Shown here: positions 833 to 63,476 of the stretch, in pieces
Layout: each line of letters opens with the position of its first letter
How positions within the stretch are numbered: the stretch's first letter is position 1
From: Salegentibacter sp. 24
GTDB taxonomy: Bacteria > Bacteroidota > Bacteroidia > Flavobacteriales > Flavobacteriaceae
Direction of reading: 5' to 3'
Assembly: GCF_004362395.1 (NCBI RefSeq)
Contig: NZ_SNWE01000003.1
Span: forward strand, 124,001 to 188,000
DNA length: 64,000 nucleotides
Translations under genes and position numbers: made by a program
Notes under the pieces: generated by a model
Databases searched by the model: none
The model's input: only the letters and a program-made list of their open reading frames with translations
Told to the model about the DNA's origin: nothing

Positions 833-2380
833 TTATTGCGCCTCATCCCACCAGATTCTGGTTGTTAAATTATCAGGCCCCTGAGAAGATACTGCCGCAT
901 TATAATTTTCAGCATTGGTTAACTGTTCTGACTGCAGATATGTTAATCTTCTGGGTATAGTCCCTCCGGTAACATTCCCCGGATAATCAACCGGATCCAA
1001 AACAGGATATCCAGTTCTTCTCCAGTTGGCATAGGCTTCATATTCATTTAGAAAAACTGCTGCCCAGTACTGTGTATTTATTTGCTCAAGGGCATTACTT
1101 GGATCATAAGGATTGGCTTCAAGGTAATTGGAAATTTCCTCCTCTGAAATCACTGCCTCAGGAGAATAAAGTTCTAAATAGTTCATCGCGGCTCTCACTC
1201 CCGCCTTGTAATGAGACTCCACATCTCCATCACCAGACCCCCATCGATATGCCGCTTCTGCCAGCATAAATTCAACTTCGGCATAGGTTTGAAAAAAATT
1301 CGGTGCTGCCTCACTGGTAAGATATAACCTGTTAGGTTCTGAAAAATCCTGTGTATTTGTTTTTCCTGTCTGCTCTTGCAGTAAAAAGCTATCCAGTCCA
1401 TTGGGCAAACCAACCTGGGCCTCAGGATCGGTGCGTTCTTCAACCGTTCTTAAAATAGGGTTGCCGTTGGCATCGGTTTCTCCGGTGTTTTCCGGAAGAC
1501 TCGCATAAATGGTTAACCTGGGATCACCTTGTAAAAACTCAATAAATGTATTACTAATCCGGGGCGTGCCATCAGCGGTAAAGGTTTCTCCATTTCCGTT
1601 TTGGACAATACCATTTCCTTCTTCGTGCACCACATAGGCAATATCGTCATTTGATTCCATAACTCCGCCGGCTATTGCTTTTTCAGCCCATTTCTGAGCC
1701 GCGGCCTCATCTACTTTAGTCATTCTTAATCCTAATCGCAGCATTAAGGAATAGGCCCATTTTTGCCACTTTGAGGTATCTCCATTAAAAATGATATCCG
1801 TTGAGCCCAAGGTACTTGTGGATCCCTCGAGTAGCTCAGCGGATTCTTCCAATTCTTTTAACATATCTGCATAAATATTTTCCTGTAAATCATAAGCAGG
1901 TCTCATATTCCCAGTGATATAAGCATTTCCAGCCTCTGAATAAGGAATGTCCCCATAGAGATCTGTCATCCGATGATATGCAAATACTCTTAAAACTCTT
2001 ACCATCGCATAATCAGCTGAAAGGGTATCCCCTTCTGTTTCCAGCTGATATTTCATATCTTCAATAACCTTGATGGTTTGGGGATACTGGGCGGTCCAAA
2101 AAGCTTCTGCGTACCCCGCGCTGTAGGTATATTTATCCCCGTTCCAATAGCCCTGGGTATTGGCAAGATGCTGAATCATCGTGGAGGCATATATTAGATT
2201 CGCTCTCCAGCTTTCATATCGTTGGCCGGAAGCGTATAAAACCGCAGTTGGGAATTTATAGTTCAAATCAATTTGCGTCGCTGTTGTGGGGTCGACATTT
2301 ATATCTTCAAAATCATCATCACAAGAAGATAAAAAGAGAGATAACCCCAAAAACATAGATATATATAACTTGGTTTTCAT
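833..2380 (-). CDS. SusD-like outer-membrane glycan-binding lipoprotein (SusD/RagB family)
   Basis: This 515-residue protein starts with a lipoprotein signal ending in LFLSSC, which places it on the outer membrane. The sequence after the lipobox (DDDFEDINVDP) and the helical TPR-like body with RVFAYHRMTDLYGDIPYSEA fit the SusD-like_2 branch of the family. The C-terminal part carries the usual RRTGYP segment (NWRRTGYPVL). SusD proteins cover the matching SusC barrel and capture oligosaccharides for uptake. The gene follows SusC by only 9 bp, so the two are co-transcribed. The ligand is not readable from sequence. Neighbouring GH92, GH20 and GH130 enzymes suggest mannose-rich, GlcNAc-containing glycans. 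Confidence 0.95.
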   Translation of the reverse strand: MKTKLYISMFLGLSLFLSSCDDDFEDINVDPTTATQIDLNYKFPTAVLYASGQRYESWRANLIYASTMIQHLANTQGYWNGDKYTYSAGYAEAFWTAQYPQTIKVIEDMKYQLETEGDTLSADYAMVRVLRVFAYHRMTDLYGDIPYSEAGNAYITGNMRPAYDLQENIYADMLKELEESAELLEGSTSTLGSTDIIFNGDTSKWQKWAYSLMLRLGLRMTKVDEAAAQKWAEKAIAGGVMESNDDIAYVVHEEGNGIVQNGNGETFTADGTPRISNTFIEFLQGDPRLTIYASLPENTGETDANGNPILRTVEERTDPEAQVGLPNGLDSFLLQEQTGKTNTQDFSEPNRLYLTSEAAPNFFQTYAEVEFMLAEAAYRWGSGDGDVESHYKAGVRAAMNYLELYSPEAVISEEEISNYLEANPYDPSNALEQINTQYWAAVFLNEYEAYANWRRTGYPVLDPVDYPGNVTGGTIPRRLTYLQSEQLTNAENYNAAVSSQGPDNLTTRIWWDEAQ

Positions 2381-2389
2381 AGTATTTGT

Positions 2390-5300
2390 TTAAAATTTTA
2401 CGTTGATGTTCAATCCATAACTTCTGCTGGTAGGTAAGCCAAATCTTTCTAGTCCTACCCCACCAGAGGAATTATTAAAAGCGGATTCAGGATCGATATT
2501 CTCTGTTTCCCTTTTGATAAAGAAAAGATTTCGCCCGATTAAGGAAATATTTGCACTACTTATAAAAGTATCCTCCAACAGCTGGCTGGGAAAATTGTAA
2601 CCCAGACTAATTTCTCTGAACTTGATAAAATCAGCATCCTGAATATTTGCTTCTGCTATCTGATATAATTTCTGATAATATATACTTGTATTTTCCGGAG
2701 CTATAGTTGTTGAAAAAGCATTTCCATCAACATCCACTCCGCTTATATCAAGTCCGTTTTCGCGTCCTACTAAAGTATTTTTACTGGCCCCATAATAATT
2801 GGCAAAGGCACTGGTTCCCGAAAGTATTTCTGCACCGAATTTGGCGTCGATAAGAAAAGACAGGTTGATATTTTTATAATTAAAATTATTACTGATCCCC
2901 ATAGTCCAGGGAGCAACCCCGTTGCCCAAAAATTCACTCGGTCCAACAGTGGGTGTACCGTTGCTATCATACTGAATATTGCCCTGATCATCTCTTATAA
3001 AGGTTGTTCCATATATAGCACCAAATGGCCTTCCTACAATGGCACCAGATTGTGCATTGACTCCGGAATTACCAATGAACAAGGGATTCCCATCTAAATC
3101 AGTGGCTTTGACCTGGTTATCATTATAAGCCAGGTTATAAGAAATATTCCATCCAAAATTTTCTAAATCTATTGGAGCACCTGTCAGTAATAATTCCACT
3201 CCCTGGTTGGTCATTTCACCAACATTGATATAAGCCTGGTTGTATCCTGAAGAATTTGAGATACTAATGGGCACGATATCATCTGTAGTTTTATTCGAAT
3301 AATAGGTTAGATCCACACCCAGACGACTTTCAAGCATCATAAGGTTTACACCGAATTCATATTCCGTTTTGGAAAAAGGTTTTAAATCCTGGTTAGGCAA
3401 ATAGGAATTTGTAATATTCCCTAAAGGCACATTATTCCCCTGCCCTGAGTAAGTATCGAAAATACCATAGGCTAAAGAAAGTTGATAGGCCTCTGGGACC
3501 CCTCCCCCAATATCAGAATAACCAGCTCTGAATTTACCAAAAGTAACCCATTCAGGCATATCAAATGCATCAGAGAAAACAAAGCTTGTACTGGCAGAAG
3601 GGTAGAAATAAGAATTAGGACTTGTCTTTCCGGCCAGGGACAAGGTGGAAAACCAATCCTTTCTTCCTGTTACATTCAAAAACAGGTAATCTTTATAAGA
3701 AAGTTCGGTGGTAAAGTAGAGAGAATTAATTTTTATCTGGGCAAAGTCATAAGTATAGTTCTTTGTGGTGACATTCGAAATATCCTCTAACCCGGGCAAT
3801 ACAAATTCCGACCCGTTTAATACTGTTTGTTCATTTTTCTTATCATTGCTATTGGCTCCCAAAATTACAGAAGCTCCGAAATCATCAAAGCTCTTCTCAA
3901 GGCCTAACATGATATCGGCATCTACAGTTTTCACATTAAAGGCTGTTTCGGTCATGGATCCAAGGGGTTTATATGCAGTTCCAAAAGGTTCTACTGCGGT
4001 TATCCTGGCGGTATACTGATCGATACCTGCTCTACCCAAAACATACATCCAGTCTGTAATATCGTATCTTAAATTTGCAGACCCGATAAACCTGTTTTTT
4101 TTGCTTTCATTATTAAATGCATAGGCAGACCAGTAAGGGTTTTGGTGGTATGTACTACTGGATATTCTAAGTTCTGTACCCTCTTCATTATATCCAGGGC
4201 GATAATCCAGGACATTGATATTGGGTGGAGATAAGACCACTGCAAAATTTGCATTACCGGGAGAATCTGCCAGACGAGGCCTGTTTTTTACATCTTCCAG
4301 TATATATTTTGTATTAATGTCCAAACTGAGTTTGTCTGCTAATTGCATTCCCGCATTAAGGGAGAAAGATTTTCTGTTTAAACCTGAATTTGGTGTCACA
4401 TCCTCATTGGTCAAATCCGTTGCTGAAAATCTTATATTATAGTTATCACCTGCCTTGGCAAAAGCCACCGTATTTGTTAGGGTAACACCCGATCTATAAA
4501 ACCTGTCAATATTATTTCCCTGATCGGAATAAGGTCTTTCAATCCCGTCAAACTGAACAACGCTGGAACCATCCAGCCTGCTTCCCCAGGCCTGCATTCC
4601 AGCATCCAAAGCTTCTTGCTGAGAAGTTGGAGCCTGCCCTAAGGTGCCCTGGCCATATTGATTCTGAAAATCGTAGATATCAGACATTACGGTCTCCATA
4701 AGTACCGAACCAGCGTATTCCACACCAATTCCTTTCTGGCCCTTTCCGGATTTAGTATTGATTATAATAACTCCATTGGATGCTCTAGACCCATAAAGGG
4801 CAGCCGCGGCACCTCCTTTTAAAACATTGATGGTTTCAATATCATCAGGGTTGATACTTGAAATTCCATCTCCGAAATCCGATCCTCCCCACTGGCTGGC
4901 AGAGCCCAAATTGGTATTATCAATTGGAATTCCATCTACGATATACAAAGGTTGATTCCCCCCGCTAATACTACTAGCACCTCTTATAATTACATTACTT
5001 GTTCCTGCGGGTCCAGTTGCTGAACCGGTAATATTAAGACCAGCGACCTTGCCCTGTAAGGCGTTAATCGCATTGACCTGTTTTACCTCAGCCAATTCTT
5101 CCCCGTCTACCTGCGTAACGGAATATCCCAAAGCTTTTTCAGATCGCTTAATTCCCAAAGCAGTCACTACTACTTCATCAAGTGCCTCTGAATCTGCTTC
5201 CAACTGTATGTTCATCATGTTTGAATCAGCGGGAACCTCTAGCGTTTTGAATCCCACCATGGAAAACACCAGGGTGGCACCATTATCCACCTGTAGTTCA

Positions 5301-5491
5301 AAATTTCCATCGAAGTCAGTAGAAGTACCATTATTGGTACCTTTTTCCAACACCGTTACCCCGGGCAAAGGTATTTCGGATTCCGCTTCTTTCACCGTAC
5401 CATTAACTGTTAGCTCCTGGGCCTGGACAAAACTTATAAATCCAAGCGAAAAAAGGAACATGCAAATAAACTTTCTTACCATGTTTATCAT
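2390..5491 (-). CDS. SusC/RagA family TonB-linked outer-membrane transporter
   Basis: This 1033-residue protein has a signal peptide ending near FVQAQ, then a carboxypeptidase-like regulatory domain (about 28-110, with LPGVTVLEKG and STDFDGNFEL). A plug domain follows (about 115-240, with ALQGKVAGL, NVIIRGASS and PLYIVDGIPIDN), then a 22-strand-type barrel ending in the aromatic GLNINVKF. It imports oligosaccharides across the outer membrane with TonB energy and pairs with the SusD encoded next to it. No anti-sigma-interacting N-terminal extension is visible, so sigma/anti-sigma control is unlikely. The ATG at 5491 or the one 9 bases later (MVRKF) could be the start. The 201-bp upstream gap holds a motif shared with the LytS/GH92 intergenic region. 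Confidence 0.96.
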   Translation of the reverse strand: MINMVRKFICMFLFSLGFISFVQAQELTVNGTVKEAESEIPLPGVTVLEKGTNNGTSTDFDGNFELQVDNGATLVFSMVGFKTLEVPADSNMMNIQLEADSEALDEVVVTALGIKRSEKALGYSVTQVDGEELAEVKQVNAINALQGKVAGLNITGSATGPAGTSNVIIRGASSISGGNQPLYIVDGIPIDNTNLGSASQWGGSDFGDGISSINPDDIETINVLKGGAAAALYGSRASNGVIIINTKSGKGQKGIGVEYAGSVLMETVMSDIYDFQNQYGQGTLGQAPTSQQEALDAGMQAWGSRLDGSSVVQFDGIERPYSDQGNNIDRFYRSGVTLTNTVAFAKAGDNYNIRFSATDLTNEDVTPNSGLNRKSFSLNAGMQLADKLSLDINTKYILEDVKNRPRLADSPGNANFAVVLSPPNINVLDYRPGYNEEGTELRISSSTYHQNPYWSAYAFNNESKKNRFIGSANLRYDITDWMYVLGRAGIDQYTARITAVEPFGTAYKPLGSMTETAFNVKTVDADIMLGLEKSFDDFGASVILGANSNDKKNEQTVLNGSEFVLPGLEDISNVTTKNYTYDFAQIKINSLYFTTELSYKDYLFLNVTGRKDWFSTLSLAGKTSPNSYFYPSASTSFVFSDAFDMPEWVTFGKFRAGYSDIGGGVPEAYQLSLAYGIFDTYSGQGNNVPLGNITNSYLPNQDLKPFSKTEYEFGVNLMMLESRLGVDLTYYSNKTTDDIVPISISNSSGYNQAYINVGEMTNQGVELLLTGAPIDLENFGWNISYNLAYNDNQVKATDLDGNPLFIGNSGVNAQSGAIVGRPFGAIYGTTFIRDDQGNIQYDSNGTPTVGPSEFLGNGVAPWTMGISNNFNYKNINLSFLIDAKFGAEILSGTSAFANYYGASKNTLVGRENGLDISGVDVDGNAFSTTIAPENTSIYYQKLYQIAEANIQDADFIKFREISLGYNFPSQLLEDTFISSANISLIGRNLFFIKRETENIDPESAFNNSSGGVGLERFGLPTSRSYGLNINVKF

Positions 5492-20953: not shown

Positions 20954-21289
20954 ATGAAAATAAAGGATAGTATAAAAGCTAAATTGTATGACTTTACCAC
21001 ACTATGTAAATTATATAATGTGAAGCATCTTTATGCCTTCGGATCTGCCACCACAGAAAGATTTGACGAAACTTCAAGTGATATAGATCTATTGATCGAA
21101 ATAGAAGAAAATGATCCATTAGAAAGAGGAGAAAAACTTTTAGCTATTTGGGATAAATTAGAAGAATTCTTCCAAAGAAAAGTTGATTTAATGACTGAGT
21201 CTTCTCTTAAAAATCCTGTTCTCAGAAAAAATATTGAGGCTACTAAAATTCTTATCTATGACGGAAAAAGGCAAGAAGTATCTCTCTGA
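20954..21289 (+). CDS. mntA: MntA-type nucleotidyltransferase antitoxin
   Basis: This 111-residue minimal nucleotidyltransferase has the signature HLYAFGSATTERF followed by DIDLLIE, the GS...DxD metal-binding motif, and VDLMTESSL, where the third acidic residue sits. Family members in this arrangement are antitoxins that AMPylate the HEPN toxin. The gap between GS and DID is one residue longer than the commonest form, which is also seen in relatives. The gene overlaps the HEPN gene by 32 bp and is on the plus strand, opposite to yefM-yoeB. Confidence 0.88.
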   Translation: MKIKDSIKAKLYDFTTLCKLYNVKHLYAFGSATTERFDETSSDIDLLIEIEENDPLERGEKLLAIWDKLEEFFQRKVDLMTESSLKNPVLRKNIEATKILIYDGKRQEVSL

Positions 21290-21602
21290 CATACTAATGG
21301 CTATTGATTTGATAGAAAATTTTATAGTTGACACACCAGATTTCATCTCCTACCAAGAGGACTTAAAAACACAAAGCGCCATAGAGAGGCAATTAGCAAT
21401 AATTGGTGAAGCTCTAAATAAATTAAAACAATCGGAATCCGATCTGTCTATCCTTCACGATAAACAAATAATTGGGTTTAGAAACCGACTTGTTCACGCG
21501 TATGACAGTATTGATAATACTATTGTGTGGGTAATTGTAAAAAGACATTTACAGGAACTCAAACTTGAAATAAAGAAATTAGCATTGGCCAATAACTTAT
21601 AA
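21258..21602 (+). CDS. hepT: HepT-type HEPN (DUF86) toxin
   Basis: About 114 residues from the ATG at 21258 (MTEKGKKYL). An upstream start at 21234 would reach further into mntA. The all-helical HEPN fold is marked by AIERQLAIIGEALNKL and by the RNase motif Rx4HxY in RNRLVHAYDSI near residue 80. HepT toxins are ribonucleases neutralised by the cognate MntA through AMPylation of the motif's Tyr, which is present here. The intact motif and intact partner suggest a working pair. Confidence 0.88.
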   Translation: MTEKGKKYLSDILMAIDLIENFIVDTPDFISYQEDLKTQSAIERQLAIIGEALNKLKQSESDLSILHDKQIIGFRNRLVHAYDSIDNTIVWVIVKRHLQELKLEIKKLALANNL

Positions 21603-25946: not shown

Positions 25947-28241
25947 TCATATTTCATTAGAAAGCGAATACGGAAAATCAGATTTCTTGGTTCCCCGGTT
26001 TTTATTGGGCTCATCTCCCATTTCAAATTCGATAACCGCGCCTTTCATCAGTTCTTTATGGCTCAAATAATTCTTGGTGTAAGTTTCCCCATTAATTTCC
26101 ATGCTTTGAATATACTTATTAGCATCACTATTTTCGGGAGCTTTAATAATTACCTCATTTCCGTTTTGAAGTTTCATGGTTACTTTCTTGAAAAGCGGCG
26201 TTCCAATTACATACTGGTCAGTAGCTGGAGCTACGGGGTAAAAGCCCAAGGCTGAAAATACGTACCATGCGGAAGTCTGTCCGTTATCTTCATCCCCACA
26301 ATATCCATCCGGGGTAGGTTGGTACATCCTGTCCATGGTCTCTCTGACCCAGTATTGGGTTTTCCAGGGCTGGCCTGCGTAGTTATACAAGTAGATCATA
26401 TGTTGAATAGGCTGATTTCCGTGGGCATACTGACCCATATCTGCAATTTGCATCTCCCGGATCTCGTGAATTACACCGCCATAATAACTTTCATCAAAAA
26501 CCGGGGGCAACTCAAAAACCTTATCCAACTGGGCTACAAATTCCTCTTTGCCTCCCATAAGGTCAATTAACCCCTGGGGATCGTGAAATACGGACCAGGA
26601 ATAGTGCCAGCTGTTTCCTTCCGTAAAGGCATCTCCCCATTTAAATGGATTGAAATCCTCCACAAATTCACCATTTTTATTCTTCCCGCGCATCAGTTTG
26701 GTTTCAGGATCGTATAAATTCTTGTAATTAAGACTGCGCTTTTTATATAATTCGATCTCCTCCCTAGGACGATTTAATTTTTTTGCCAGTTGATATATGG
26801 CAAAATCATCATAGGCATACTCAAGGGTTCTGGCAGCATTCTCATTAATACCGACATCATATGGTACGTAACCAAGATCCTTATAGTACTCAGCACCGGC
26901 ACGTCCTACAGCAGTCATAGGACCTGCGTTATTAGCACCTTTGAGAAGTGCCTCGTATAATAAATCTATATCATAATCAAATTTCCCGTCTGTTTTCAAG
27001 TAAGCGTCTGCAACCACAGAAGCAGAATTATTGCCAACCATAATATTTCTAAGGCCCGGGCTTGCCCATTCCGGTAGCCAGCCACTCTCTTTATAAGCAT
27101 TGGCTAATCCTGCCTGCATCTTGGCATTGAGTTCAGGATACATTAAATTCAAAAATGGGAATAAAGATCGGAAAGTATCCCAGAAGCCCGTGTCAGTAAA
27201 CATGTAGCCCGGAAGAACTTCCCCGTTATAGGGGCTATAATGAACAACTTCCCCTTGTGCATTGTATTCATAGAATTTTCTTGGAAACAGCAAAGACCTG
27301 TATAAGGTGGAATAAAAAGTCGCCACTTCATCGGGTGTACCACCCTCTACTTTAATTCTGGAAAGTTCGGTATTCCATTCTTCTCTACCTTTTTCGCGTA
27401 CGGTTTCAAAATCGTCATTTCCAATTTCTTTCAGGTTTAATTCTGCCTGTTCAAAGCTTATGAAAGAGGAAGCTACCCTGGCGTTAACCTCTTCTCCCTT
27501 TTCTGTCTTAAAGCTTATCACTGCACCTACGTGCTCATCTTCCATTTCTAAATTATCAGACAGTTCTTTTCCGCTAAAGGTGCTGGAGGCAGTAAAATCT
27601 TTATCGAATTCCAGAATAAAATAATTTTTAAAATTATCAGGAACCCCACCACTGTTTTTGGTAGTATACCCAATAACTTTATTTTCCTCCGGAATTATTT
27701 TAATATAAGAACCATTATCCAGTGCATCTATCACCACATGGGAACTATCAGATTCCGGGAAGGTAAAACGAAAACGAGCAGCCCTTGAAGTAGGAGTTAT
27801 TTCCGTAGTCACATCGTGATCCGCAAGATAAACGCTGTAATAATGTGGCATTACTTTCTCAGATTTATGCGAGAACCAACTGGCACGCTCATCCTGATCA
27901 AAACGGATTTTTCCGGTTACTGGCATAATAGCAAATTGCCCATAATCGTTCATCCAGGGCGAAGGTTGGTGAGTTTGTTTAAAGCCACGCAGTTTATCAG
28001 CAGTATACTGGTATGCCCAGCCATGCCCCATAACCCCAGTTTGAGGGGTCCAGAAATTCATTCCCCAGGGTCTGGCAATTGCAGGGTAAACATTCCCATT
28101 GGAAAGACTTGGTTTTGAATCTGTTCCCATAAGGGGATTAACCCATTCAACAGGATCTTCCACCTGGTCCACCAGGTAATCCTGTGCCTGTATATAGGTG
28201 GCAAAAAAACAAAATGCCAGGATAAAAAATTTAGTTCTCAT
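25947..28241 (-). CDS. GH92 family protein (copy 4) without the usual general-acid Glu
   Basis: This 764-residue protein has a signal peptide ending IQAQ. The GH92 fold is clear: WVNPLMGTDSKPSLSNGNVY, the helical domain, and CGDEDNGQTSAWYVFSALGFYP at the calcium and base site. Where copies 1-3 have Asn-Glu-Thr or similar, this protein reads EWASPGLRNIMVG, with Leu397-Arg398 and no Glu. The general acid seen in classical alpha-1,2-mannosidases is therefore missing. Known GH92 members with a changed acid act on activated substrates such as mannosyl phosphodiesters, which is one possibility. It lies between GH43 (11-bp gap) and GH92 copy 3, in the same unit. Confidence 0.92.
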   Translation of the reverse strand: MRTKFFILAFCFFATYIQAQDYLVDQVEDPVEWVNPLMGTDSKPSLSNGNVYPAIARPWGMNFWTPQTGVMGHGWAYQYTADKLRGFKQTHQPSPWMNDYGQFAIMPVTGKIRFDQDERASWFSHKSEKVMPHYYSVYLADHDVTTEITPTSRAARFRFTFPESDSSHVVIDALDNGSYIKIIPEENKVIGYTTKNSGGVPDNFKNYFILEFDKDFTASSTFSGKELSDNLEMEDEHVGAVISFKTEKGEEVNARVASSFISFEQAELNLKEIGNDDFETVREKGREEWNTELSRIKVEGGTPDEVATFYSTLYRSLLFPRKFYEYNAQGEVVHYSPYNGEVLPGYMFTDTGFWDTFRSLFPFLNLMYPELNAKMQAGLANAYKESGWLPEWASPGLRNIMVGNNSASVVADAYLKTDGKFDYDIDLLYEALLKGANNAGPMTAVGRAGAEYYKDLGYVPYDVGINENAARTLEYAYDDFAIYQLAKKLNRPREEIELYKKRSLNYKNLYDPETKLMRGKNKNGEFVEDFNPFKWGDAFTEGNSWHYSWSVFHDPQGLIDLMGGKEEFVAQLDKVFELPPVFDESYYGGVIHEIREMQIADMGQYAHGNQPIQHMIYLYNYAGQPWKTQYWVRETMDRMYQPTPDGYCGDEDNGQTSAWYVFSALGFYPVAPATDQYVIGTPLFKKVTMKLQNGNEVIIKAPENSDANKYIQSMEINGETYTKNYLSHKELMKGAVIEFEMGDEPNKNRGTKKSDFPYSLSNEI

Positions 28242-28252
28242 AATTGCGATGT

Positions 28253-29245
28253 TTATTTATTAATTGGATTTGCTTCCACTCCTTGGTGAGTGATAACTAC
28301 TGGTTTGATATGACCGTTCTCATCAAAATACATTCTATCGATGCTAGTCACTCTTGAATTTCTATCTGTTTCCCCTTTTGGTCGTCGGTGATATACGATG
28401 TAATAGGCATCCTCACCTGGTGCTTTAATCACCGAATGGTGTCCTGCCCCGGTGGCAATTTCAGGATCTTGTTGCAATATCTTGCCAATTCTTTTAAAAG
28501 GCCCGGTAGGAGAATCGGCAATAGCATAAGCTACACTATAATCAGGTCCGGTCCAACCGCCTTCTGACCACATAAAATAGTACTTACCATTTCGCTTAAA
28601 CATAAAAGGACCTTCCACATAGCCTTCAGGAGTGACTTCTTTAAAAACTTCTCCATTCTCAAAGGGTACAAATCCGGTGAAATCATCATTGAGCTTTGCT
28701 ACATTACAATGCTGCCAACCACCATAGAACATATAATATTGTCCCTTATCTTCATAGACAAACTGGTCAATTGGCTGGGCACCATTGTGAAATTTACCGA
28801 TAAGTGGTTTTCCCAGGTGATCCTTATAAGGCCCTTGGGGACTAGAAGCTTTGGCCACCCCTATACCCCCTAATTCTTCATCACTTTGAATGTCGTTGGC
28901 ACCGAAAAACAAGAAATAATCATCGCCTTTTTTTATAACTGCCGGGGCCCACATAGCGCGCTTCGCCCATTTTACTTCAGCGGTATCGATTATTCTTTTA
29001 TGTTTTTCCCAATGCACCAGGTCCTTGGATGAAAAAGCATCCAGGAATACCTGCTCATCATATGGAGCCGAATAGGTAGGAAAGATCCAGTATTGGTCGT
29101 CAAAAACAATTCCTTCCGGATCGGCATACCAACCCGGGAATACCGGGTTATTATTTTTGGTTGTCTCCTGTGCTTTTAGCTCCCCAAGCATGATGAAAAA
29201 AGAGGTCACCCCTACAATCATCAATTTTTTAGATATACTTTTCAT
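28253..29245 (-). CDS. GH43-type secreted five-bladed propeller hydrolase
   Basis: This 330-residue protein has a signal peptide ending LKAQ. The single propeller domain has the three GH43 acidic positions: Asp in PGWYADPEGIV (base), Asp in GAQPIDQFVYED (modulator) and Glu in EGYVEGPFMFKRNG (acid). The length fits a GH43 without an accessory domain. The family is mostly arabinofuranosidases and xylosidases, with some galactosidases. The mannan context makes the natural linkage uncertain, and a side-chain pentose or galactofuranose on fungal mannan is possible. It starts the GH43-GH92-GH92-MFS run, about 200 bp after the ROK kinase stop. Confidence 0.9.
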   Translation of the reverse strand: MKSISKKLMIVGVTSFFIMLGELKAQETTKNNNPVFPGWYADPEGIVFDDQYWIFPTYSAPYDEQVFLDAFSSKDLVHWEKHKRIIDTAEVKWAKRAMWAPAVIKKGDDYFLFFGANDIQSDEELGGIGVAKASSPQGPYKDHLGKPLIGKFHNGAQPIDQFVYEDKGQYYMFYGGWQHCNVAKLNDDFTGFVPFENGEVFKEVTPEGYVEGPFMFKRNGKYYFMWSEGGWTGPDYSVAYAIADSPTGPFKRIGKILQQDPEIATGAGHHSVIKAPGEDAYYIVYHRRPKGETDRNSRVTSIDRMYFDENGHIKPVVITHQGVEANPINK

Positions 29246-29447
29246 AATTTAATTATATGTTTAATAATTACTTTAATTCTTAATTTGGTTTTGGTTTTGG
29301 TTTATAAGGCCATAGCTCAAATCCTAACAAAGCTTTTTATTGATACTCATAATCCACACCTTAACACCCAACCATTAGCTCTTAAGAGCAAAACACCAAT
29401 ATCACGCTAATAAATTTGCCTTTAGGCTTATTACAGCCTTAAGTTAT

Positions 29448-30572
29448 TTATACTTTTTCCTTTGTCTTTACTTCTCTTCCTGTCCTGTTTAACGCAACAG
29501 CATAGGCCCCGAGCATAGTAGCCTTGTTTGTTCCCAAACGTGAAATCCCTACTGGGATCCTTTTATTTTGAATGAATTCTATCTTTCTGTTTGAAAATGG
29601 CACCTTAAGTTTTTCTGTGGCGGTATTGTAGAAAGCTCGCTTGGATTTTTCCTCCTCAAAGGAAAAAGCCTCTGGAACTATTCTGCTGAATTCTTCATTT
29701 TTACGATTTTTGATTTTACCGCCCAAATGTTTTAAAATCTGTGGGAGTAATAGTTTTGAAGATCCTGCAATTCCTCCTCCTATTACCACGGCTCCATCGA
29801 CAATGGTAATAACATTAGCCAAAGCCTCCGCCGCAACTTCTGCCACCTGATCATAAGCTTTTACGGCTGCTTTCCGGTCGCCTTCTTTCTCCCCTATTGC
29901 AATTTGAAAAATATCTTTAGGATTCAAATCAATTTCCTTACCAGAAAATTTTTGATAATAAAACTGAATTCCCCTGACACTTACGCTTTCTTCAGCTATT
30001 ATACCAGGCTCAAGTATATTGCGCATTAACCAAATTTCTCCTCCCGCGGAATTATCTCCCCCGCAAATCTGTTTATTTATAACCACACCACCTCCAAAGC
30101 CGGTACCTAAAGTGATTCCTATAAGGTTTTTAAATTCTCTTTTAATTTCTAAATCTTTAAATCCCTTATTGACTTCTGGAAGAAAACCTCCAATAGCTTC
30201 TCCGTAGGCAAAAAGGTCCCCGTCATTATTGATATAGGTCGGTAATTTAAAATAATCCTCCAGCATCGGACCCAATGCCACCCCTCCCTGGAAAGAGGGA
30301 AAGTTCGGTGGATTGATTATAATTCCATTCTGATATTCAGCCGGACCTGGAAAGGCAAAACTAATGGCCACAGCCTTAGCCGGTAGTAGGATTTCTATTA
30401 TTTTTTTAAAACCCTCGATAATTGATTGTAAACACTTTTCTAAATCCTTAGAATGAGAGGGTAAAGTGATAAAGGGAGTAATAGGTTCCCCCCCTTTTAT
30501 AGCTGAAAAAACCAAATTTGTTCCTCCTGCATCGAGTGTTAAAACAATTCTTTCGTCTTGAAATATTTTCAT
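29448..30572 (-). CDS. ROK-family sugar kinase, probably a hexokinase
   Basis: This 374-residue cytoplasmic protein has the ROK phosphate-binding motif LTLDAGGTNLVFSAI at the start, catalytic Asp in TYINNDGDLFAYGEA, and the second phosphate loop GITLGTGFGGGVV. The CxCGxxGC zinc site of many ROK proteins is not seen, and the position reads GGDNSAGGEIWL instead. ROK kinases phosphorylate glucose, mannose, GlcNAc or fructose. In this setting mannose to mannose-6-phosphate is the best guess. The gene follows the GH97_N/GH125 gene by 39 bp. A run of seven G lies in codons 25-27 of the minus strand. Confidence 0.88.
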   Translation of the reverse strand: MKIFQDERIVLTLDAGGTNLVFSAIKGGEPITPFITLPSHSKDLEKCLQSIIEGFKKIIEILLPAKAVAISFAFPGPAEYQNGIIINPPNFPSFQGGVALGPMLEDYFKLPTYINNDGDLFAYGEAIGGFLPEVNKGFKDLEIKREFKNLIGITLGTGFGGGVVINKQICGGDNSAGGEIWLMRNILEPGIIAEESVSVRGIQFYYQKFSGKEIDLNPKDIFQIAIGEKEGDRKAAVKAYDQVAEVAAEALANVITIVDGAVVIGGGIAGSSKLLLPQILKHLGGKIKNRKNEEFSRIVPEAFSFEEEKSKRAFYNTATEKLKVPFSNRKIEFIQNKRIPVGISRLGTNKATMLGAYAVALNRTGREVKTKEKV

Positions 30573-30611: not shown

Positions 30612-32444
30612 TTAAGCCAGTAAATGAGGTTTTTCCTGGTAGGTTTTCCATAAAAATTCCCCAAAGAGAGTATTTGCCCATGCGAACCAGGCCCTGGTAA
30701 AATCTGTCGGATCGTCTTTATGGAAAGTTTCATGCATAAAGCCTGTATTACCGTGGGTATTTTTAAGGGTATCTACACACCATTTGATCTCCTTTTCATC
30801 ATTACTTGTTAGTCCTTTCATAGTGATGGACATTGGCCAAATCATATCCAGAGCCACGTGTGGTCCTCCTATTCCTTCACCAGCCGTTCCCTTAAAAAAG
30901 AAAGGATTGTCTTTTGACCAGACATAATTTCGGGTATTTTGGTAAATTTCATCGGTAGCATCCACCGCCCCTAAATATGGCAAAGCTAATAAGCTAGGGA
31001 CATTGGCGTCATCCATCAACAACTTATTTCCAAATCCATCTACTTCAAAGGCGTAAATTTTACCATATTTTTTATGATCCACTATAGCATGTTCTTCCAA
31101 AGCAGTTTTAACTTCTTTCCTTAAACTTAATAATTCTTCAGACAGGGAGGAATCTTGCTGTATGTCTCGCATCATTTCAGCTGCCTGCTCCAGGCTAACT
31201 ATGGCAAAGAAATTTGAAGGTATCAAAAAAGAAAAAACGGTAGCATCATCACTAGGCCTGAAAGCCGAACAAATCAGTCCTACGGGGTTAACCGGGTAAC
31301 CATAACCCTGTAAAGCTCTGGTATCGGTAGCCTTTGTGGTTTCTCTTTGGAAAGAATATTCACCTCTGTCATTTTTTTTCTGCTGATCCCTGAATACATG
31401 TAATATGGACTGGATTGCTTTTTTCCATTCCTGGTCAAAAGGGGCGGTATCCCCGGTCGATTTCCAATAGTGATAACCTAACCTGATAGGATAGCATAAA
31501 GAATCAATCTCCCATTTTCGTTCGTGAACTCCAGGTTTCATATCTGTTTGATCTGAAAACCATTCCCCTTTTTTATTAGGATCATCATAAAATGCATTGG
31601 CATATGGATCCTTAAGAATATATTTTGTCTGGCGGTTAATAACCCCTGCAATCAGGTTTTTTAATTTTTCATCCTTATCTACGAAAGCCATGTAAGGCCA
31701 TACCTGAGCGGAACTGTCCCTGAGTCCCTGGTCCTCATAGGCTAAAGGTTGTTTTGGAAAAACAGACGCTAAGGTGTTCTGTGCAGAATACTTTAAAAAC
31801 ATACCCGGATAATCATATAAATCAGATTCTGAAATTAAAATCTCATAATCCGAATCCGTTTCTAGTAGTACCGGTAGTGTACTCATATTGCTTTCCGGGG
31901 ATAATTCACCTGGTGATACATGGCTGTATGGATGCTCATAGGAAGTTTTAAAGGATGGAGTTTGTTGAAGATGCATCTGGTAAGCATCAGGAATGTTTAG
32001 ATGAAAATCTTCGTTTAAAACTTCAATTTCTCCGGGTTTTTCTGTTATAAACCGATAAGCAACCCCCTCATTATAAGCCCGGAATTCGATAGCGTAATCT
32101 CCTTCGAACTCCAATATCAAGTTATTGTAATGATTATTAATTTTTGAATATTTTAGAGGCACCTCAGGGCTATGGGTCTCTTCTACTGAATTAGTTTGCT
32201 GTCCAATTAATTCAGGTTTTTCACCTAACATTTCATCTTTGAGTTTCATCCCTAAAGAATTATTCTTAAGTAAAATATTGTTTTGAGCTGAGATGGTATA
32301 ATATACTTTATCATCCAGGCTCACTGATAATTTCAATTCTTTATCTGGTGATTGTAACTCAAAATCCTGTGCCTTAGAATTAGTGCTCAACAGCACCAGG
32401 AAAAACCCCAAAAATGCAATTTTCTTTAGTTTTAATATCTCCAT
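30612..32444 (-). CDS. Chimeric protein: GH97 N-terminal domain joined to GH125 catalytic part
   Basis: This 610-residue protein has a signal peptide (to about NSKAQ, 26). Residues 27-238 are the GH97 N-terminal beta-sandwich (LQSPDKELKLSVSLDD, IEFRAYNEGVAYRF, YDYPGMFLKYS). From Leu241 the sequence is GH125 exo-alpha-1,6-mannosidase (LRDSSAQVWPY, LIAGVINRQTKYIL, EIDSLCYPIRLGYHYW, GTAGEGIGGPH). The GH97 TIM barrel is missing. So are about 60-110 residues of GH125, including the GDIxAMW segment that normally precedes WLRDS. The join at 31725-31730 is in frame. It looks like an in-frame deletion between adjacent GH97 and GH125 genes, and GH125 activity is doubtful because part of the sugar-binding wall is gone. 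Neighbours are the esterase and ROK genes. Confidence 0.85.
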   Translation of the reverse strand: MEILKLKKIAFLGFFLVLLSTNSKAQDFELQSPDKELKLSVSLDDKVYYTISAQNNILLKNNSLGMKLKDEMLGEKPELIGQQTNSVEETHSPEVPLKYSKINNHYNNLILEFEGDYAIEFRAYNEGVAYRFITEKPGEIEVLNEDFHLNIPDAYQMHLQQTPSFKTSYEHPYSHVSPGELSPESNMSTLPVLLETDSDYEILISESDLYDYPGMFLKYSAQNTLASVFPKQPLAYEDQGLRDSSAQVWPYMAFVDKDEKLKNLIAGVINRQTKYILKDPYANAFYDDPNKKGEWFSDQTDMKPGVHERKWEIDSLCYPIRLGYHYWKSTGDTAPFDQEWKKAIQSILHVFRDQQKKNDRGEYSFQRETTKATDTRALQGYGYPVNPVGLICSAFRPSDDATVFSFLIPSNFFAIVSLEQAAEMMRDIQQDSSLSEELLSLRKEVKTALEEHAIVDHKKYGKIYAFEVDGFGNKLLMDDANVPSLLALPYLGAVDATDEIYQNTRNYVWSKDNPFFFKGTAGEGIGGPHVALDMIWPMSITMKGLTSNDEKEIKWCVDTLKNTHGNTGFMHETFHKDDPTDFTRAWFAWANTLFGEFLWKTYQEKPHLLA

Positions 32445-32657: not shown

Positions 32658-33482
32658 CTACATTTTTTGGTTACTCCCCATTTTACTTTTCACAAAATCC
32701 AGCAATAAAGGAAATGCTGGGTGAGTCATGCCATGACCATATCCATCCATTTCATAAATTTTGATATCTTTTTGACCGTTTATTTTCATCATCCGGTAGA
32801 AGTAGGCGTTTTCTTCATACCTGCCGAGCATTTCTAACTCCCTGTCACCGGTAATCAATAGAATCGGTGGGGCATCCCCTCTGACATGGTATAATGGAGC
32901 CCAAGGGTCTATAATAGGTTGCTCGCCGGGAATACCCTGCTCTTTTCTAATGGTAAAGTGAGTGATGGTATGATCACTAAAAGGAATTAGACCTGCTATC
33001 TGGTTAGCATCTAAATCGTATTCTTTTAAAAAGGATTTATTCAAAACGCTCATCAGTGCCAGGTACCCCCCGGCCGAATGTCCGGAAACAAATATTTGAC
33101 TGGGATCTCCATTGTACTTAGAAATGTTCCGTAGGACCCAGGCAATCGCCCCGGCAGCATCCCGGACACTGGTCTTTGCTTTTACCTTTGGTGACAACCT
33201 GTATCCAACACCGACAATACAATATCCTTTCCGGGTAAGCTGTTCTGGTATTTCTTTCTCTCCCCCTGTAAGTCCCCCTCCGTGAAACCAAATTATGACA
33301 GGAACTTTTTTATCTGTATCAGGATAACTAATGTCCAAAAGAGCCATCTCTTTCTGATATTCAGAGCTTGGGTCCTTCAATATTTCGTGGTATGGAATAT
33401 TACTTTTTTGTTTGTAATTTAATTCCTGGGCGTGGATTAATACAGGTAGCAGAAGTAATAAAAAACGAAAGAGAAAGTTCAT
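32658..33482 (-). CDS. Secreted alpha/beta-hydrolase esterase
   Basis: About 274 residues from the ATG at 33482 (MNFLFRFLLLLLPVLIHAQ), which gives a proper signal peptide; the longer frame to 33548 adds an unlikely leader. The fold is shown by VPVIIWFHGGGLTGG (oxyanion hole), the nucleophile elbow FVSGHSAGGYLAL and a C-terminal His in DGYGHGMTHPAF. The Asp is likely in LLITGDRELEM. It resembles BD-FAE/carbohydrate-esterase-like proteins, so removal of acyl groups from decorated glycans is likely. It lies between GH92 copy 5 and the chimeric GH125 gene. Confidence 0.88.
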   Translation of the reverse strand: MNFLFRFLLLLLPVLIHAQELNYKQKSNIPYHEILKDPSSEYQKEMALLDISYPDTDKKVPVIIWFHGGGLTGGEKEIPEQLTRKGYCIVGVGYRLSPKVKAKTSVRDAAGAIAWVLRNISKYNGDPSQIFVSGHSAGGYLALMSVLNKSFLKEYDLDANQIAGLIPFSDHTITHFTIRKEQGIPGEQPIIDPWAPLYHVRGDAPPILLITGDRELEMLGRYEENAYFYRMMKINGQKDIKIYEMDGYGHGMTHPAFPLLLDFVKSKMGSNQKM

Positions 33483-33624
33483 AGGATTGATATATGATAA
33501 ATAGTAAAATTTAAAAAAATAGCTCACTACAAATTCAGGTCGTGGCAATACGCAGCCTCTGGATCCTTTTAAAAACTGGCTAAATTTATTAGGGTTTAAC
33601 TATCAGTCTATTGAAAAAAATGAA

Positions 33625-35802
33625 TTATTCAGTCACAAGCTCTACTTCTCCCCCCGTCTCAAATAAATTATGAGGAATGAAATAACCTTCCAGGTCCTGC
33701 TGGTCTACCATTATATTTTTCAATTTTCTTCCTGAATTTGGTCTCTTTATGGTCAAAGTTTTATTGCCAGGTAAATTCCATGTAACTTTTTCAAAAATGG
33801 GTACGGTAACTAAATATTCCGGATCTGCAGGTGACAAGGGATAAAGGCCCGAAGCCGCAAAAACATACCAGGCAGACATCTCTCCGGCATCATCCATTCC
33901 TGGAAGAGCTAGCCCTTCTTCGCCTACCCCATAGAAATTTTCAAGAATATTGTCAATTATCTTCTGAGACTTTTCAGGTTTATCTACAAAATAATAAGAA
34001 AAGGCAGCCTCATGATCGGGCTGGTTGCCGTGGGAATATTGTCCAATAAAACTAGCCACATTTCGCGCAATATAATCAGGGTTCCATGGCACTGAAAAAA
34101 GGGAATCCAATTTCATCTCAAATTCATTTTTACCCCCGTATAATTCAACCAGTTCAGGCATATCGTGCGGTGCATAAAAGGAAACCTGCCATGCATTTGC
34201 CTCCCGGTACATATATTCGTAATAGGGATGTTCCGGATTAAATGGACTGATCCAGTCACCATTCTCCAGTCTGCCCCGCATAAAATTAGTAGAAGTATCA
34301 AATACATTTATGTAATTTTCAGAGCGATCGATAAGGTCCTCATATTTCTGATTATCTCCAAGTGCTTTTGCGAGCTGTGCCACGGAATAATCGTCATAAG
34401 CATATTCCAGGGTTTTAGAAACACCGGCCTTCGCTTTAGTTTCTACACCAGGATTCTCCACATCTGGGTCTGAAATATATCCCTTTTCAATATATTCCTT
34501 AATATGCGGACGTGGACCACCTTCTTTATAAGCATTATTTAGTAGCAATTGGTAAGCCTTCTCAATATTAAAATCTTTATTACCTCTCAAATAAGTTCCG
34601 GCAATAAAGGGGGCTGCGTGATCACCATGGAAGAAAGTAGGAATAAAACCTGTGTTTTCACCTTTATTAATCAGAGATTTAATTATATCGGTGGTTACCT
34701 CGGGAGAAACTATACTTAAAAGCACTAATTTATTCCTATAAGTATCCCAGAAAGAGGGATTTGTATAATACTCAAAATCCTTTTTTACAACCTCCCCCTT
34801 TACATTTTTAAATTCCCCATTGACGTCACTTCTAAGGGCAGGCCAGAGAAAAGAACGATAAAACGAAGAATAAAACAGTTCGTTTTGCTGCTCATTACCT
34901 CCTGTAACTTCAATTGTTGACAGTAAATTTTCCCACTTCATATCGGCTTTTTTCTTTATATCTTCAAAACCAGACTTCCCGATTTCTAGTTTTAGATTTT
35001 CAGCAGCATTTTCAATACTCACATAGGATATTCCAATTTTAAGATTTACTGGTTGTTCTCCATCCTGCAGGTGAAGCATAGCGTACCCGTCCTTTTCACC
35101 ACTACCGATAACATCGAGTTCCTCAATTTTAACGTTGGTCTGGGCATAGAAATGAACTTTATCCCCTCCAACTCTTTGAAAGCCCGATACCACAGAGTCA
35201 TTATTCTTTTTTATTTCCCATTGGGAAACCCCATTATTTGCTTTGTCAAGGTCAAAAAGAATCTTTCTTCCAGAATTGTTTTCAAAGCTATATTGATGAA
35301 ACCCACTTCGCAAGGTAGAGGTAAGCCTTACCCTGACATCATAATCATCTAAATAGACTTCATAATACCCAGGGGAGGCAAACTCTTTCTCATGGCTAAA
35401 AGTAGATTTAAATGGAGCTTTTGAATTTCCTGAAACCGGAAGAATCGGGATATTACACAAATTCCAGTGACCTTTATTGGTATGGGCAAAACCAAGTATT
35501 TCGGTGTCTTCATACTGGTAACCAGCTCCTGTTCCATACTCGGTTATCGGACTTAGCTGAACCATGGCATTAGGCAAAGATGATCCCGGAAAAACCAATC
35601 CCGCCCAAACCCGCCAGTTTTCAGGAGGAGTATAACCTATAAAATCAGGATCAGTTAAAGGAGCTGTTCCTATGAAAGGATTAACCAGAGAAGTGTAGGC
35701 TTTTTCTTTGATCTTAGCTGAGCTTTCAGGTTCATCCTGTTTGGAATTATTACACGAAAAAAGAATCACAGAAAAAACACAGGCTACTATAGTTTTTCTC
35801 AT
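33625..35802 (-). CDS. GH92 family protein (copy 5), lipoprotein, general-acid segment deleted
   Basis: This 725-residue protein has a lipobox in SVILFSC. The GH92 layout is present (LVNPFIGTAPLTDPDF, FAHTNKGHWNLCNIPI, and GMDDAGEMSAWYVFAASG at the base and calcium site). The stretch that carries the general-acid Glu in copies 1-3 is shortened to FIPTFFHGDHAAPF, so that residue is absent. The HSD motif of the beta-sandwich side is changed to NKGHWNLCN. This suggests a different substrate or an altered mechanism within GH92. The gene is 55 bp downstream of GH76, in the same transcription unit. Confidence 0.92.
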   Translation of the reverse strand: MRKTIVACVFSVILFSCNNSKQDEPESSAKIKEKAYTSLVNPFIGTAPLTDPDFIGYTPPENWRVWAGLVFPGSSLPNAMVQLSPITEYGTGAGYQYEDTEILGFAHTNKGHWNLCNIPILPVSGNSKAPFKSTFSHEKEFASPGYYEVYLDDYDVRVRLTSTLRSGFHQYSFENNSGRKILFDLDKANNGVSQWEIKKNNDSVVSGFQRVGGDKVHFYAQTNVKIEELDVIGSGEKDGYAMLHLQDGEQPVNLKIGISYVSIENAAENLKLEIGKSGFEDIKKKADMKWENLLSTIEVTGGNEQQNELFYSSFYRSFLWPALRSDVNGEFKNVKGEVVKKDFEYYTNPSFWDTYRNKLVLLSIVSPEVTTDIIKSLINKGENTGFIPTFFHGDHAAPFIAGTYLRGNKDFNIEKAYQLLLNNAYKEGGPRPHIKEYIEKGYISDPDVENPGVETKAKAGVSKTLEYAYDDYSVAQLAKALGDNQKYEDLIDRSENYINVFDTSTNFMRGRLENGDWISPFNPEHPYYEYMYREANAWQVSFYAPHDMPELVELYGGKNEFEMKLDSLFSVPWNPDYIARNVASFIGQYSHGNQPDHEAAFSYYFVDKPEKSQKIIDNILENFYGVGEEGLALPGMDDAGEMSAWYVFAASGLYPLSPADPEYLVTVPIFEKVTWNLPGNKTLTIKRPNSGRKLKNIMVDQQDLEGYFIPHNLFETGGEVELVTE

Positions 35803-35857: not shown

Positions 35858-37036
35858 TTAAGATCCATTTAGTAATGCATTTGCCTCCATTAGCATAACT
35901 CCACTTAACTGGGTAGATAAATCAACCCTTCCACTTGGTTGGTCACTCCAGTTGGGCCCAAACAGCCCCTGGTCACTACGCCCGTTGGAATACAGGGTTT
36001 CAGCATTGAATTGTATAAATTCTTTGTATTGCTCTTGCTTCTCTACTGCTAATTCGGGATTTAAAGCCAGTTGGGTTAAATACCTCACCAGGATTCCTTT
36101 AAATAAGCCTCCATCGCCCTGTCCTTCATTTTTTAAAATTCCACCCGTAGTCAACTCCCCTGAGGAGATCACTGAATTTGCAGATTTCATAGCGTCTTGT
36201 AAATAGACCGAATTGCCGGTTGTTTGGTGCAACAAATTGGCTGCCCCAATATAAGTTCCTACATTATAGGTAAAAATCCAATCCCGGTTAATCACCGCCT
36301 GTCCATCCTGGAAATTTATATTATCCCAGACTAAGCCTGTATCCGGGTCTACCAAAGTATTTTTCAACCAGTGATAAATATCTTTTGCCCATTGAAGATC
36401 TTCCGGGTCCTGGTCGATTTGATAGAGATAAAGTGCAAATATTGCGGCGGGTCCATTAGAACAGGCATTTTTACTATTGGGCGTATCGGTTTTCCAGGCA
36501 ATCCCACCCCCGTGGACATCACTCCAAGCCTTTTTTACTTCCACCCAAAGCAAGTCGGCCACTTCTTTATAACTTTCATCTCCGGTCTCCTCATAGGCTC
36601 GCAAACTTGCAATCCCTAGCCATTCCATATCATCTATAAAGTCATTTTTATACCGGTTCCCATTTCGTGTTTTAATTCCTTCTAATAATGCCTTCATTCT
36701 CGGGAGATAGGCATCATTTCCGGATCTTTTATACCCATCGACAAGAACGTCCAACATATGAGCATTCCACCAATAATTAAAATTTTGATTTCCTAAATTA
36801 TCCTGGCCAAAGGTTCCTGCTGAGCTCAGATAGGTGTCGTAGGTAATCTGTTGAAATTTTTGGGATACTTCCCCCCAATCACTAACCTCTTCTTCAAAGT
36901 CCTCTTCATCTTCATCAGGTTCAGAGGGGGTTTCATTTTCCTTTTCTTCAACCTCGGGTAGATTCTCTCCATCGGTTGAACAAGAATTCAGAAAAAACAA
37001 TGTTAAAAAAAGGACTCCTAGTCTTACTATTTTCAT
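35858..37036 (-). CDS. GH76 endo-alpha-1,6-mannanase, lipoprotein
   Basis: This 392-residue protein has a lipobox in FLNSC and an acidic linker (about 30-55, rich in Glu and Asp) that could hold the enzyme off the membrane. The (alpha/alpha)6 barrel shows the catalytic Asp-Asp in FIDDMEWLGIAS and further conserved parts GGGIAWKTDTPNSKNACSNGPAA and DWIFTYNVGTYIGAA. GH76 cuts the alpha-1,6-mannan backbone of yeast and fungal cell walls inside the chain. It is the strongest evidence that this half of the window targets fungal-type alpha-mannan. It follows lacI by 122 bp, with a LacI-type operator between them. Confidence 0.94.
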   Translation of the reverse strand: MKIVRLGVLFLTLFFLNSCSTDGENLPEVEEKENETPSEPDEDEEDFEEEVSDWGEVSQKFQQITYDTYLSSAGTFGQDNLGNQNFNYWWNAHMLDVLVDGYKRSGNDAYLPRMKALLEGIKTRNGNRYKNDFIDDMEWLGIASLRAYEETGDESYKEVADLLWVEVKKAWSDVHGGGIAWKTDTPNSKNACSNGPAAIFALYLYQIDQDPEDLQWAKDIYHWLKNTLVDPDTGLVWDNINFQDGQAVINRDWIFTYNVGTYIGAANLLHQTTGNSVYLQDAMKSANSVISSGELTTGGILKNEGQGDGGLFKGILVRYLTQLALNPELAVEKQEQYKEFIQFNAETLYSNGRSDQGLFGPNWSDQPSGRVDLSTQLSGVMLMEANALLNGS

Positions 37037-62158: not shown

Positions 62159-62201
62159 AATTCAAATATTTTCACCAATTTGGGTGAAAACATCGTTGCG
62201 G

Positions 62202-63476
62202 ATGAAAATTACAACTTCATTAGAAAACATACAATCATTTGGCGGGCTTAATTTTGTTTCAGCCGAATTTGACCAATTAAACCTTCCAGAAATGATTGCC
62301 CGGCACCTTGGGCAGCGCCCTTCACAAGCCAAGTTTAGCTATTCTGATATGGTCAGAAATATGTGGTCGGTTCTTTTTTCCGGAGGTGACTGCGCAGAAG
62401 ATTTGCAAACCAACTTAAAAAATGAGTTCCTGCATATCCAGGACCTCAATGTATGTTCTCCGGATACTGTTTTGCGCCTTCAGAAATCCTTGGCTCTGGG
62501 CAAGGAAATCCATATAGGCAAGTCGGGGTCTGTGAATGAATTCAGCAAACATCCCAAGCTCAATGCTCTAAACCTGGATCTGTTGCTGCAATCAAAAACA
62601 TTGTGCCCAAACCAGTCTTATGATCTTGACTTTGACCACCAGTTTATCCCTTGTGAGAAATACGATTCCAAAAAGGGCTATAAAATGAAGCAGGGCTATT
62701 TCCCGGGCGTGGCAAGCATCGGCAAACATATCGTGTATGTTGAGAACAGGAACGGCAACTCTAATGTAAAGTTCAAACAGGCGGAAACACTGCAGGACAC
62801 CTATGATCTGCTAAAAAGCCAAAACATTCAAATTGACAGGAGCCGTATGGACTGTGGCTCTTTTACAAAGGAAATCATTAAAACGGTCCAGGCCAACAGC
62901 GAAAGGTTTTACATCAGGGCTCAGCGCTGTGGTGAACTGTCCAACAAAATAAAGAACGTACAACAATGGCAAACGGTAAAAATAGGGCTGTTCGATGTGG
63001 AGGTCTGCAGTATCGAGTATACACCTTTTGGGGGCAAGAAAACATATCGGTACGTGATAAGCAGAGAAAAGAACCATACCGGCCAGACCGATGCTTTTTT
63101 TGGCGATGCCTTTACCTACAGGGCAATAGCCACTAATGACCTGGCTTCCACCGATAAAGAGATCATAGAATACTACAATCAAAGAGGGACCTCCGAAAGG
63201 ATATTTGATCAAATGAACAATGATTTTGGATGGAAGAACCTGCCCTTTTCTTTTTTAGAGGAGAATACGGTGTATATGATCCTGACGGCCATGTGCAGGA
63301 ATTTCTATTTGATGCTCTTAGAGAAATTATCCAAAAAAATACCTTTTGTGAAGCCTTACTTCAGGCTCAAAAAGTTCATCTTCCGCTTTGTAACCGTGCC
63401 TTTCAAATGGATCAGACGAGCAAGACAGAGGATCCTCAAATTATTCACCAAAAAACCCTACCACCTACTGGTTTAA
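62202..63476 (+). CDS. IS1380-family transposase
   Basis: About 424 residues from the ATG at 62202 (MKITTSLENIQSFGGLNF); a GTG at 62184 would add six. The DDE catalytic acids are visible as Asp in DLDFDHQFIPCEK, Asp in QIDRSRMDCGSF and Glu in the YNQRGTSERIFDQ signature. The basic C-terminus (KWIRRARQRILKLFTKK) is typical. It moves the IS by cut-and-paste. The frame is intact, so it should still be mobile. A short ORF in the next frame (63230-63502) is a chance frame. Confidence 0.94.
   Translation: MKITTSLENIQSFGGLNFVSAEFDQLNLPEMIARHLGQRPSQAKFSYSDMVRNMWSVLFSGGDCAEDLQTNLKNEFLHIQDLNVCSPDTVLRLQKSLALGKEIHIGKSGSVNEFSKHPKLNALNLDLLLQSKTLCPNQSYDLDFDHQFIPCEKYDSKKGYKMKQGYFPGVASIGKHIVYVENRNGNSNVKFKQAETLQDTYDLLKSQNIQIDRSRMDCGSFTKEIIKTVQANSERFYIRAQRCGELSNKIKNVQQWQTVKIGLFDVEVCSIEYTPFGGKKTYRYVISREKNHTGQTDAFFGDAFTYRAIATNDLASTDKEIIEYYNQRGTSERIFDQMNNDFGWKNLPFSFLEENTVYMILTAMCRNFYLMLLEKLSKKIPFVKPYFRLKKFIFRFVTVPFKWIRRARQRILKLFTKKPYHLLV

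Follow-up and report, generated by a model that had tools for sequence, protein, structure and literature searches.

We sought to elucidate how one open reading frame of Salegentibacter sp. 24 came to carry pieces of two glycoside hydrolase families, GH97 and GH125, and whether its product could still work as an enzyme. In the window, by which we mean the whole 64,000-nucleotide stretch of DNA that was analysed, this frame runs from an ATG through a stop codon with no internal stops, and is built as follows:

30612-32444, minus strand: chimeric open reading frame, GH97_N fused to GH125, 610 amino acids (open reading frame call and Pfam).
31725-32444, minus strand: GH97-derived part, residues 1-240, with a signal peptide that looks Sec-type by eye (about residues 1-26) and a beta-sandwich.
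30615-31724, minus strand: GH125-derived part, residues 241-610, sharing 85-87% identity with the GH125 enzymes found in three genomes of the same genus.
31724-31725, minus strand: join of the two parental genes, between GGA and CTC; the surrounding 301 bases are single copy in the genome.

Our preferred reading, which we hold with good confidence, is that of a young GH97-GH125 fusion born by deletion and probably lacking normal GH125 activity.

A first, sequence-only reading had described a GH97 N-terminal domain followed in the same frame, from about residue 241, by GH125, with the GH97 barrel and the first part of GH125 absent, and Pfam confirmed this layout. GH97_N was matched at residues 30-247 (E 2.9e-47, profile positions 1-203 of 229), and residues 241-598 gave a match to Glyco_hydro_125 (E 4.6e-154, profile positions 41-413 of 414); a chance origin of either match is excluded by these E-values. 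The N-terminal beta-sandwich profile of GH97 (PF14508) is thus present with its final 26 positions cut off, while the catalytic barrel (PF10566) and the C-terminal domain (PF14509), both found in the intact GH97 of the same-genus genome G010, gave no Pfam match in the chimera. The GH125 profile is covered only from position 41, versus 1-413 in the intact G010 enzyme. Nine distinct sequences of solved structure were matched, seven of them GH125 and two GH97 alpha-galactosidases. With the GH97 retaining alpha-galactosidases (BT1871; PDB 3a24, 5e1q) the chimera has the N-terminal beta-sandwich in common (residues ~29-240), and the two structures align to residues 29-260 at most; unlike them, it has no catalytic barrel or C-terminal domain and falls far under the cut-off of NCBIfam NF053844 (a partial match of 144 bits, cut-off 800 bits). 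With the GH125 exo-alpha-1,6-mannosidases (CpGH125, SpGH125, BT3781), the alignment covers residues 240-604 and begins at the WLRDS motif of the solved structures (2p0v, 3p2c, 3on6, 2nvp, 3qt3, 5m7i, 3qpf).

Comparison with the sister genes placed the join best at chimera nucleotides 720/721 (codons 240/241), that is between window positions 31725 and 31724, in keeping with the in-frame join first read near 31725-31730. The position is uncertain by a base or two because the GH97 parent has diverged. The motif that reads WLRDS in relatives is GLRDS in the chimera, the tryptophan itself being lost. The sequence of the chimera near the join is CAGGGACTCAGGGACAG, and at the matching places the G010 GH97 reads GGGGATAG and the G010 GH125 AGGGATAG; the short similarity at the join may fit illegitimate recombination. 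A transposon-driven fusion was rejected, as no transposase was seen adjoining the join; the only one identified in the window is a DDE transposase (PF13701) at 62184-63476, near its right end. Promoter-like sites around the chimeric gene numbered 16, not above shuffled sequences (mean 13.3, sd 3.1).

The order of genes was then compared with that of other Salegentibacter genomes. The neighbours relevant to this comparison are:

25947-29245, minus strand: GH92 and GH43 genes, downstream; order as in G010, G008 and G004.
29448-30572, minus strand: ROK-family gene, downstream neighbour; it adjoins GH125 also in G010, G008 and G004.
32658-33548, minus strand: BD-FAE-like esterase, upstream neighbour; G010 has it on the corresponding side of GH97, separated from it by a GH38-like gene.
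33625-35802, minus strand: GH92 mannosidase, upstream; order as in G010.
35858-37036, minus strand: GH76 gene, upstream; beside GH92 in G008 and G004, not at the corresponding place in G010.

The genes around the chimera comprise GH92, GH76, GH43, GH20, GH130 and ROK members, a SusC/SusD-like pair is recognisable by look at the sequence at 833-5491, and the locus is, as read from its sequence, of the alpha-mannan type. Such loci have been described in the genus: according to passages of PMC9213526, GH76-containing alpha-mannan PULs of Salegentibacter hold GH92, GH76, GH125 and GH43 together, as here, in syntenic modules with variation and with a suspected loss of function in one strain. The main text of that paper does not mention GH97, in contrast with the GH97-derived half found here.

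GH125 occurs in three of the 14 other same-genus genomes (G010, G008 and G004) as a protein of 477 amino acids, 85-87% identical to the chimera core (87% for G010). G010 is the only one of the three with a GH97 in the locus (654 amino acids, intact). The suggestion to look in sister genomes for both genes in the same position proved fruitful there: both are intact in G010, 62.6 kb apart, at the place where the window has the chimera, and the genes on either side are in the same order and orientation. Along the coding strand, G010 reads GH92e, BD-FAE, GH38-like, GH97, 62.6 kb of other genes, GH125, ROK, two genes that match the GMC oxidoreductase pair of G008, GH43, GH92d, GH92c and MFS; the window reads GH92e, BD-FAE, hybrid, ROK, GH43, GH92d, GH92c and MFS. 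One deletion with an end within GH97 and an end within GH125 is enough to convert the G010 order, at this point, into that of the window. The remaining differences are separate from it: G010 has the GH38-like gene and the GMC pair, which the window lacks, and the GH76 gene of the window, G008 and G004 is not at that place in G010. The length of the deletion in the ancestor of the window is not fixed by the 62.6 kb of G010, because the distance from GH92e to GH125 is short in G008 (11.8 kb) and G004 (11.7 kb), and a whole-genome search gave no GH97 match on the GH125-bearing contigs of these two genomes.

From this we infer that an alpha-mannan utilisation locus in a Salegentibacter-like lineage lost a stretch of DNA whose ends lay at codon 240 of a GH97 gene related to retaining alpha-galactosidases and between codons 107 and 108 of a GH125 gene for an exo-alpha-1,6-mannosidase. 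Read in frame, the fusion protein would use the GH97 signal peptide (predicted by eye) for export, and it would probably have no normal GH125 activity, as it lacks the initial helices, the conserved segment ahead of WLRDS and the -1 subsite tryptophan. Origin by deletion is well supported by these comparisons, made with a draft genome and one sister genome holding both parents. That the GH97 parent is in the locus of only one of the three same-genus genomes with GH125, and that G010 differs in other ways too, counts against our reading. The case is a clearly traced natural fusion, with both kinds of parent, the gene order and the join known, in a type of locus already studied in the genus.

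What has the GH125 half lost? Conservation was assessed on 33 sequences, from 35 collected, leaving out L015 and L078, which are shortened by an in-frame TGA. The chimera is without residues 1-107 of the sister enzyme (107 residues), and in this stretch before L108 conservation in 30 or more of the 33 relatives is seen at 34 positions, four of them within the Tat-like signal. Among the 34 is the last lost residue, W107, the counterpart of CpGH125 Trp62; this tryptophan stacks on the -1 sugar, and its neighbours Arg64 and Asp65 bind O3 and O4 (as described in passages of PMC9883506). Position 240 of the chimera is glycine, where tryptophan stands in 33/33 relatives compared. Arg64 and Asp65 are kept as R242 and D243. 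The catalytic acid and base of CpGH125, Asp220 and Glu393 (roles as given in passages of PMC9425025 and PMC9883506), are present as D399 and E572, counted along the alignment with CpGH125 (2nvp), and both are invariant in relatives. Alignment to solved structures also located the equivalent of Asn302 (N481) and the ERK motif (E308-R309-K310); R242, D243, N481, E308 and K310 are invariant in the conservation listing and R309 nearly so. The chimera thus shares with CpGH125, SpGH125 and BT3781 the acid, the base, the Arg-Asp pair and the ERK motif, and differs from these mannosidases in having neither the -1 subsite tryptophan nor the N-terminal helices nor the Tat-like RRxF signal.

Because this tryptophan and a strongly conserved segment are gone, normal GH125 activity has very probably been lost, provided that the fusion is real, and as between a dead fusion and a new enzyme, the two outcomes first proposed, the sequence leans to the inactive one. 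If dead, the fusion leaves the strain without its only GH125 and without the GH97 of the locus, and poor use of linear alpha-1,6-mannooligosaccharides would be predicted.

Two side observations concern the GH125 relatives. The Tat-like RRxF near the start (R3, R4, F6) is present in 33/33 GH125 sequences compared, L007 among them; the signal peptide of the chimera is the Sec-type one of the GH97 parent, judged by eye, and those of its GH125 relatives are Tat-like. The GH125 genes of L015 (G076) and L078 (G320) each hold one in-frame TGA, and these may be sequencing errors or a sign that GH125 loss is not unusual in the order.

Structure models were built for the intact and the chimeric protein. 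The intact G010 GH125, modelled from alignment A2 (30 of the 33 sequences), reached a pLDDT of 89.7 and superposed on 3p2c with Z 60.5 and rmsd 0.8 over 440 residues; in this model the lost stretch forms helices at 51-63, 67-76 and 79-83 plus a beta hairpin. The chimera was modelled from A4, a shallow alignment of 13 rows, where the chimera is accompanied by 8 GH97 N-domains and 4 of the 33 GH125 cores and the GH97 rows are 28-57% identical to the chimera; they are misplaced in A1 and A5 (13-21%) and absent from A3. Its model has a pLDDT of 69 and a pTM of 0.51, with the join and several loops below 50 and a helix at residues 2-20, in the signal-peptide region. The GH125 half matched 3p2c with Z 27.4 over 328 residues (rmsd 3.4) and the GH97 half matched 5e1q with Z 20.9 over 207 residues (rmsd 3.1). 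With 13 rows in one alignment and 30 in the other, the lower confidence of the chimera model does not prove misfolding.

Bacterial GH15 and GH65 enzymes, clan relatives of GH125, carry a beta-sandwich before an (alpha/alpha)6 barrel. The deletion fusion might by analogy be a working or altered enzyme, its GH97 sandwich capping the GH125 barrel on the open side while the kept acid, base and Arg-Asp pair still act on alpha-1,6-mannosides, which we consider unlikely. It would agree with the in-frame join, with the remaining catalytic residues and with the lack of relaxed evolution in either half, and 1lf6 and 7fe3 do align over both parts of the chimera model. These two-part alignments, however, have an rmsd of ~16 Å and show no shared packing, the model itself is poor, and the 34 highly conserved N-terminal positions, the tryptophan of the -1 subsite among them, are lost. 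A specific version, in which one deletion created in a single step a working glycosidase with a GH15/GH65-like sandwich-plus-(alpha/alpha)6 layout, a glycine for tryptophan in the -1 subsite, a changed substrate range and a switch from Tat-like to Sec-type export, is in our view very unlikely. If the product were active, it would mean that a GH125 barrel can survive the exchange of its N-terminus for a foreign beta-sandwich.

The evolution of both halves bears on this comparison. The GH125 core of the chimera deviates at none of the 75 columns invariant in the 33 relatives and at one of the 140 columns with 90% conservation. The nonsynonymous branch lengths are 0.0421 for the chimera and 0.0404 for G010 (difference 0.0018, bootstrap range -0.018 to 0.022), and the neighbouring genes ROK and GH92d showed no clear difference either. 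The N-domain (residues 27-240) is 61% identical to that of the G010 GH97. With G380 as outgroup, the GH97 half has 20 unique changes in the chimera versus 18 in G010, and none falls in the 22 columns invariant in eight GH97 sequences. N-domains are more variable generally: G010 and G380 are 48% identical in this domain and 73% in the barrel. Synonymous sites are saturated between most pairs of species (observed proportion 0.74-0.79 in the core), which ruled out dating by dN/dS. Since neither half has decayed, either the event is recent or the product is useful: the hybrid would be young or under selection, the data fitting either, and a long neutral life seems unlikely. The lack of decay and the kept catalytic residues are points counted against an inactive young fusion, and the former would equally be expected if a working product were under selection.

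We also considered that the fusion might be an assembly artefact, the reads of two separate genes having been wrongly joined, all the more as the draft genome is in 61 contigs. It is, however, listed as 99.91% complete, the join lies within a 232-kb contig with flanks collinear with G010, and no direct repeat of at least 11 nt was found within 31300-32200. The missing halves do not turn up anywhere else in it. Searched against the own genome, the catalytic half of the G010 GH97 found no match above 34% identity, and the GH125 N-terminus found none at E 1, whereas the same query matched 5/5 control genomes. The SusC lying between the genes in G008 gave no long match above 37%, a shorter stretch matching the window's own SusC at 45%. 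The genome holds one GH125 match and four GH97_N matches, the chimera being counted in both. The absence of the halves, the single-copy join and the lack of a repeat argue together, as indirect evidence, against misassembly, and also against inversion and translocation; the last two were rejected, the missing halves being absent elsewhere in the assembly, and an artefact is highly improbable. The gene-fusing deletion proposed at the outset is, in turn, supported by the synteny with G010, the halves missing from the genome and the single-copy join.

To see how widespread the fusion is, we searched three overlapping samples. The chimera query matched 33/99 relatives (E 1e-3), 48/397 family genomes and 74/395 phylum genomes (E 1e-20), the own genome included each time. 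Both halves in one frame were found in no other genome among 98 relatives, 396 family genomes and 394 phylum genomes (up to three candidates per genome being scored in the last two). Some GH97 matches extend past residue 240 (271 at most), and these are frames of GH97 size, not fusions. A contig scan with the N-domain alignment (A6) yielded 24 loci, including two Leeuwenhoekiella records and Salegentibacter sp. oa5 (CP051246.1), the GH97 catalytic part of which is 100% identical to that of G010; the same scan with the single chimera protein as query found no relative. The N-domain continues into a GH97 barrel in 24/24 loci, and in 11/24 it is preceded by a same-strand GH125 stretch within the DNA available for each locus; GH97 and GH125 are thus neighbours in about half of them, yet were not found fused. 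An old conserved GH97_N-GH125 family, the result first named as refuting a recent deletion and not found in these samples, would agree with both halves evolving at the rate of their intact parents, but the lack of a second one-frame case and of any N-domain relative departing from the GH97 barrel make it extremely improbable. A literature search on GH97, GH125 and fusion together yielded a single paper, concerning a cloned enzyme library.

Some minor observations accompany the fusion. Among proteins of solved structure, retaining alpha-galactosidases are the best matches to the G010 GH97, and passages of a review (PMC10154615) note a GH97 that strips alpha-galactose caps off S. pombe mannan; for these two reasons the lost GH97 would suit the trimming of galactose-capped mannan. 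The gap between ROK and GH43 (29246-29447) lacks the GMC oxidoreductase and gluconate 2-dehydrogenase subunit 3-like genes present in G008, and no remnant of the pair was found in it; Pfam identified the pair on the G008 copies, and the G010 and G004 genes were matched by sizes and start sequences. No tRNA was found in the 64-kb window. Inside the locus, a nucleotidyltransferase and HepT-like pair at 20954-21602 is likely an MNT-HEPN toxin-antitoxin module. In a Bacteroidota MAG (L095:7737-7937), a GH125-like stretch of ~67 amino acids (52% identity) immediately precedes an intact GH97 gene; most of it falls between two listed open reading frames, and it is perhaps a relic of a second GH125.
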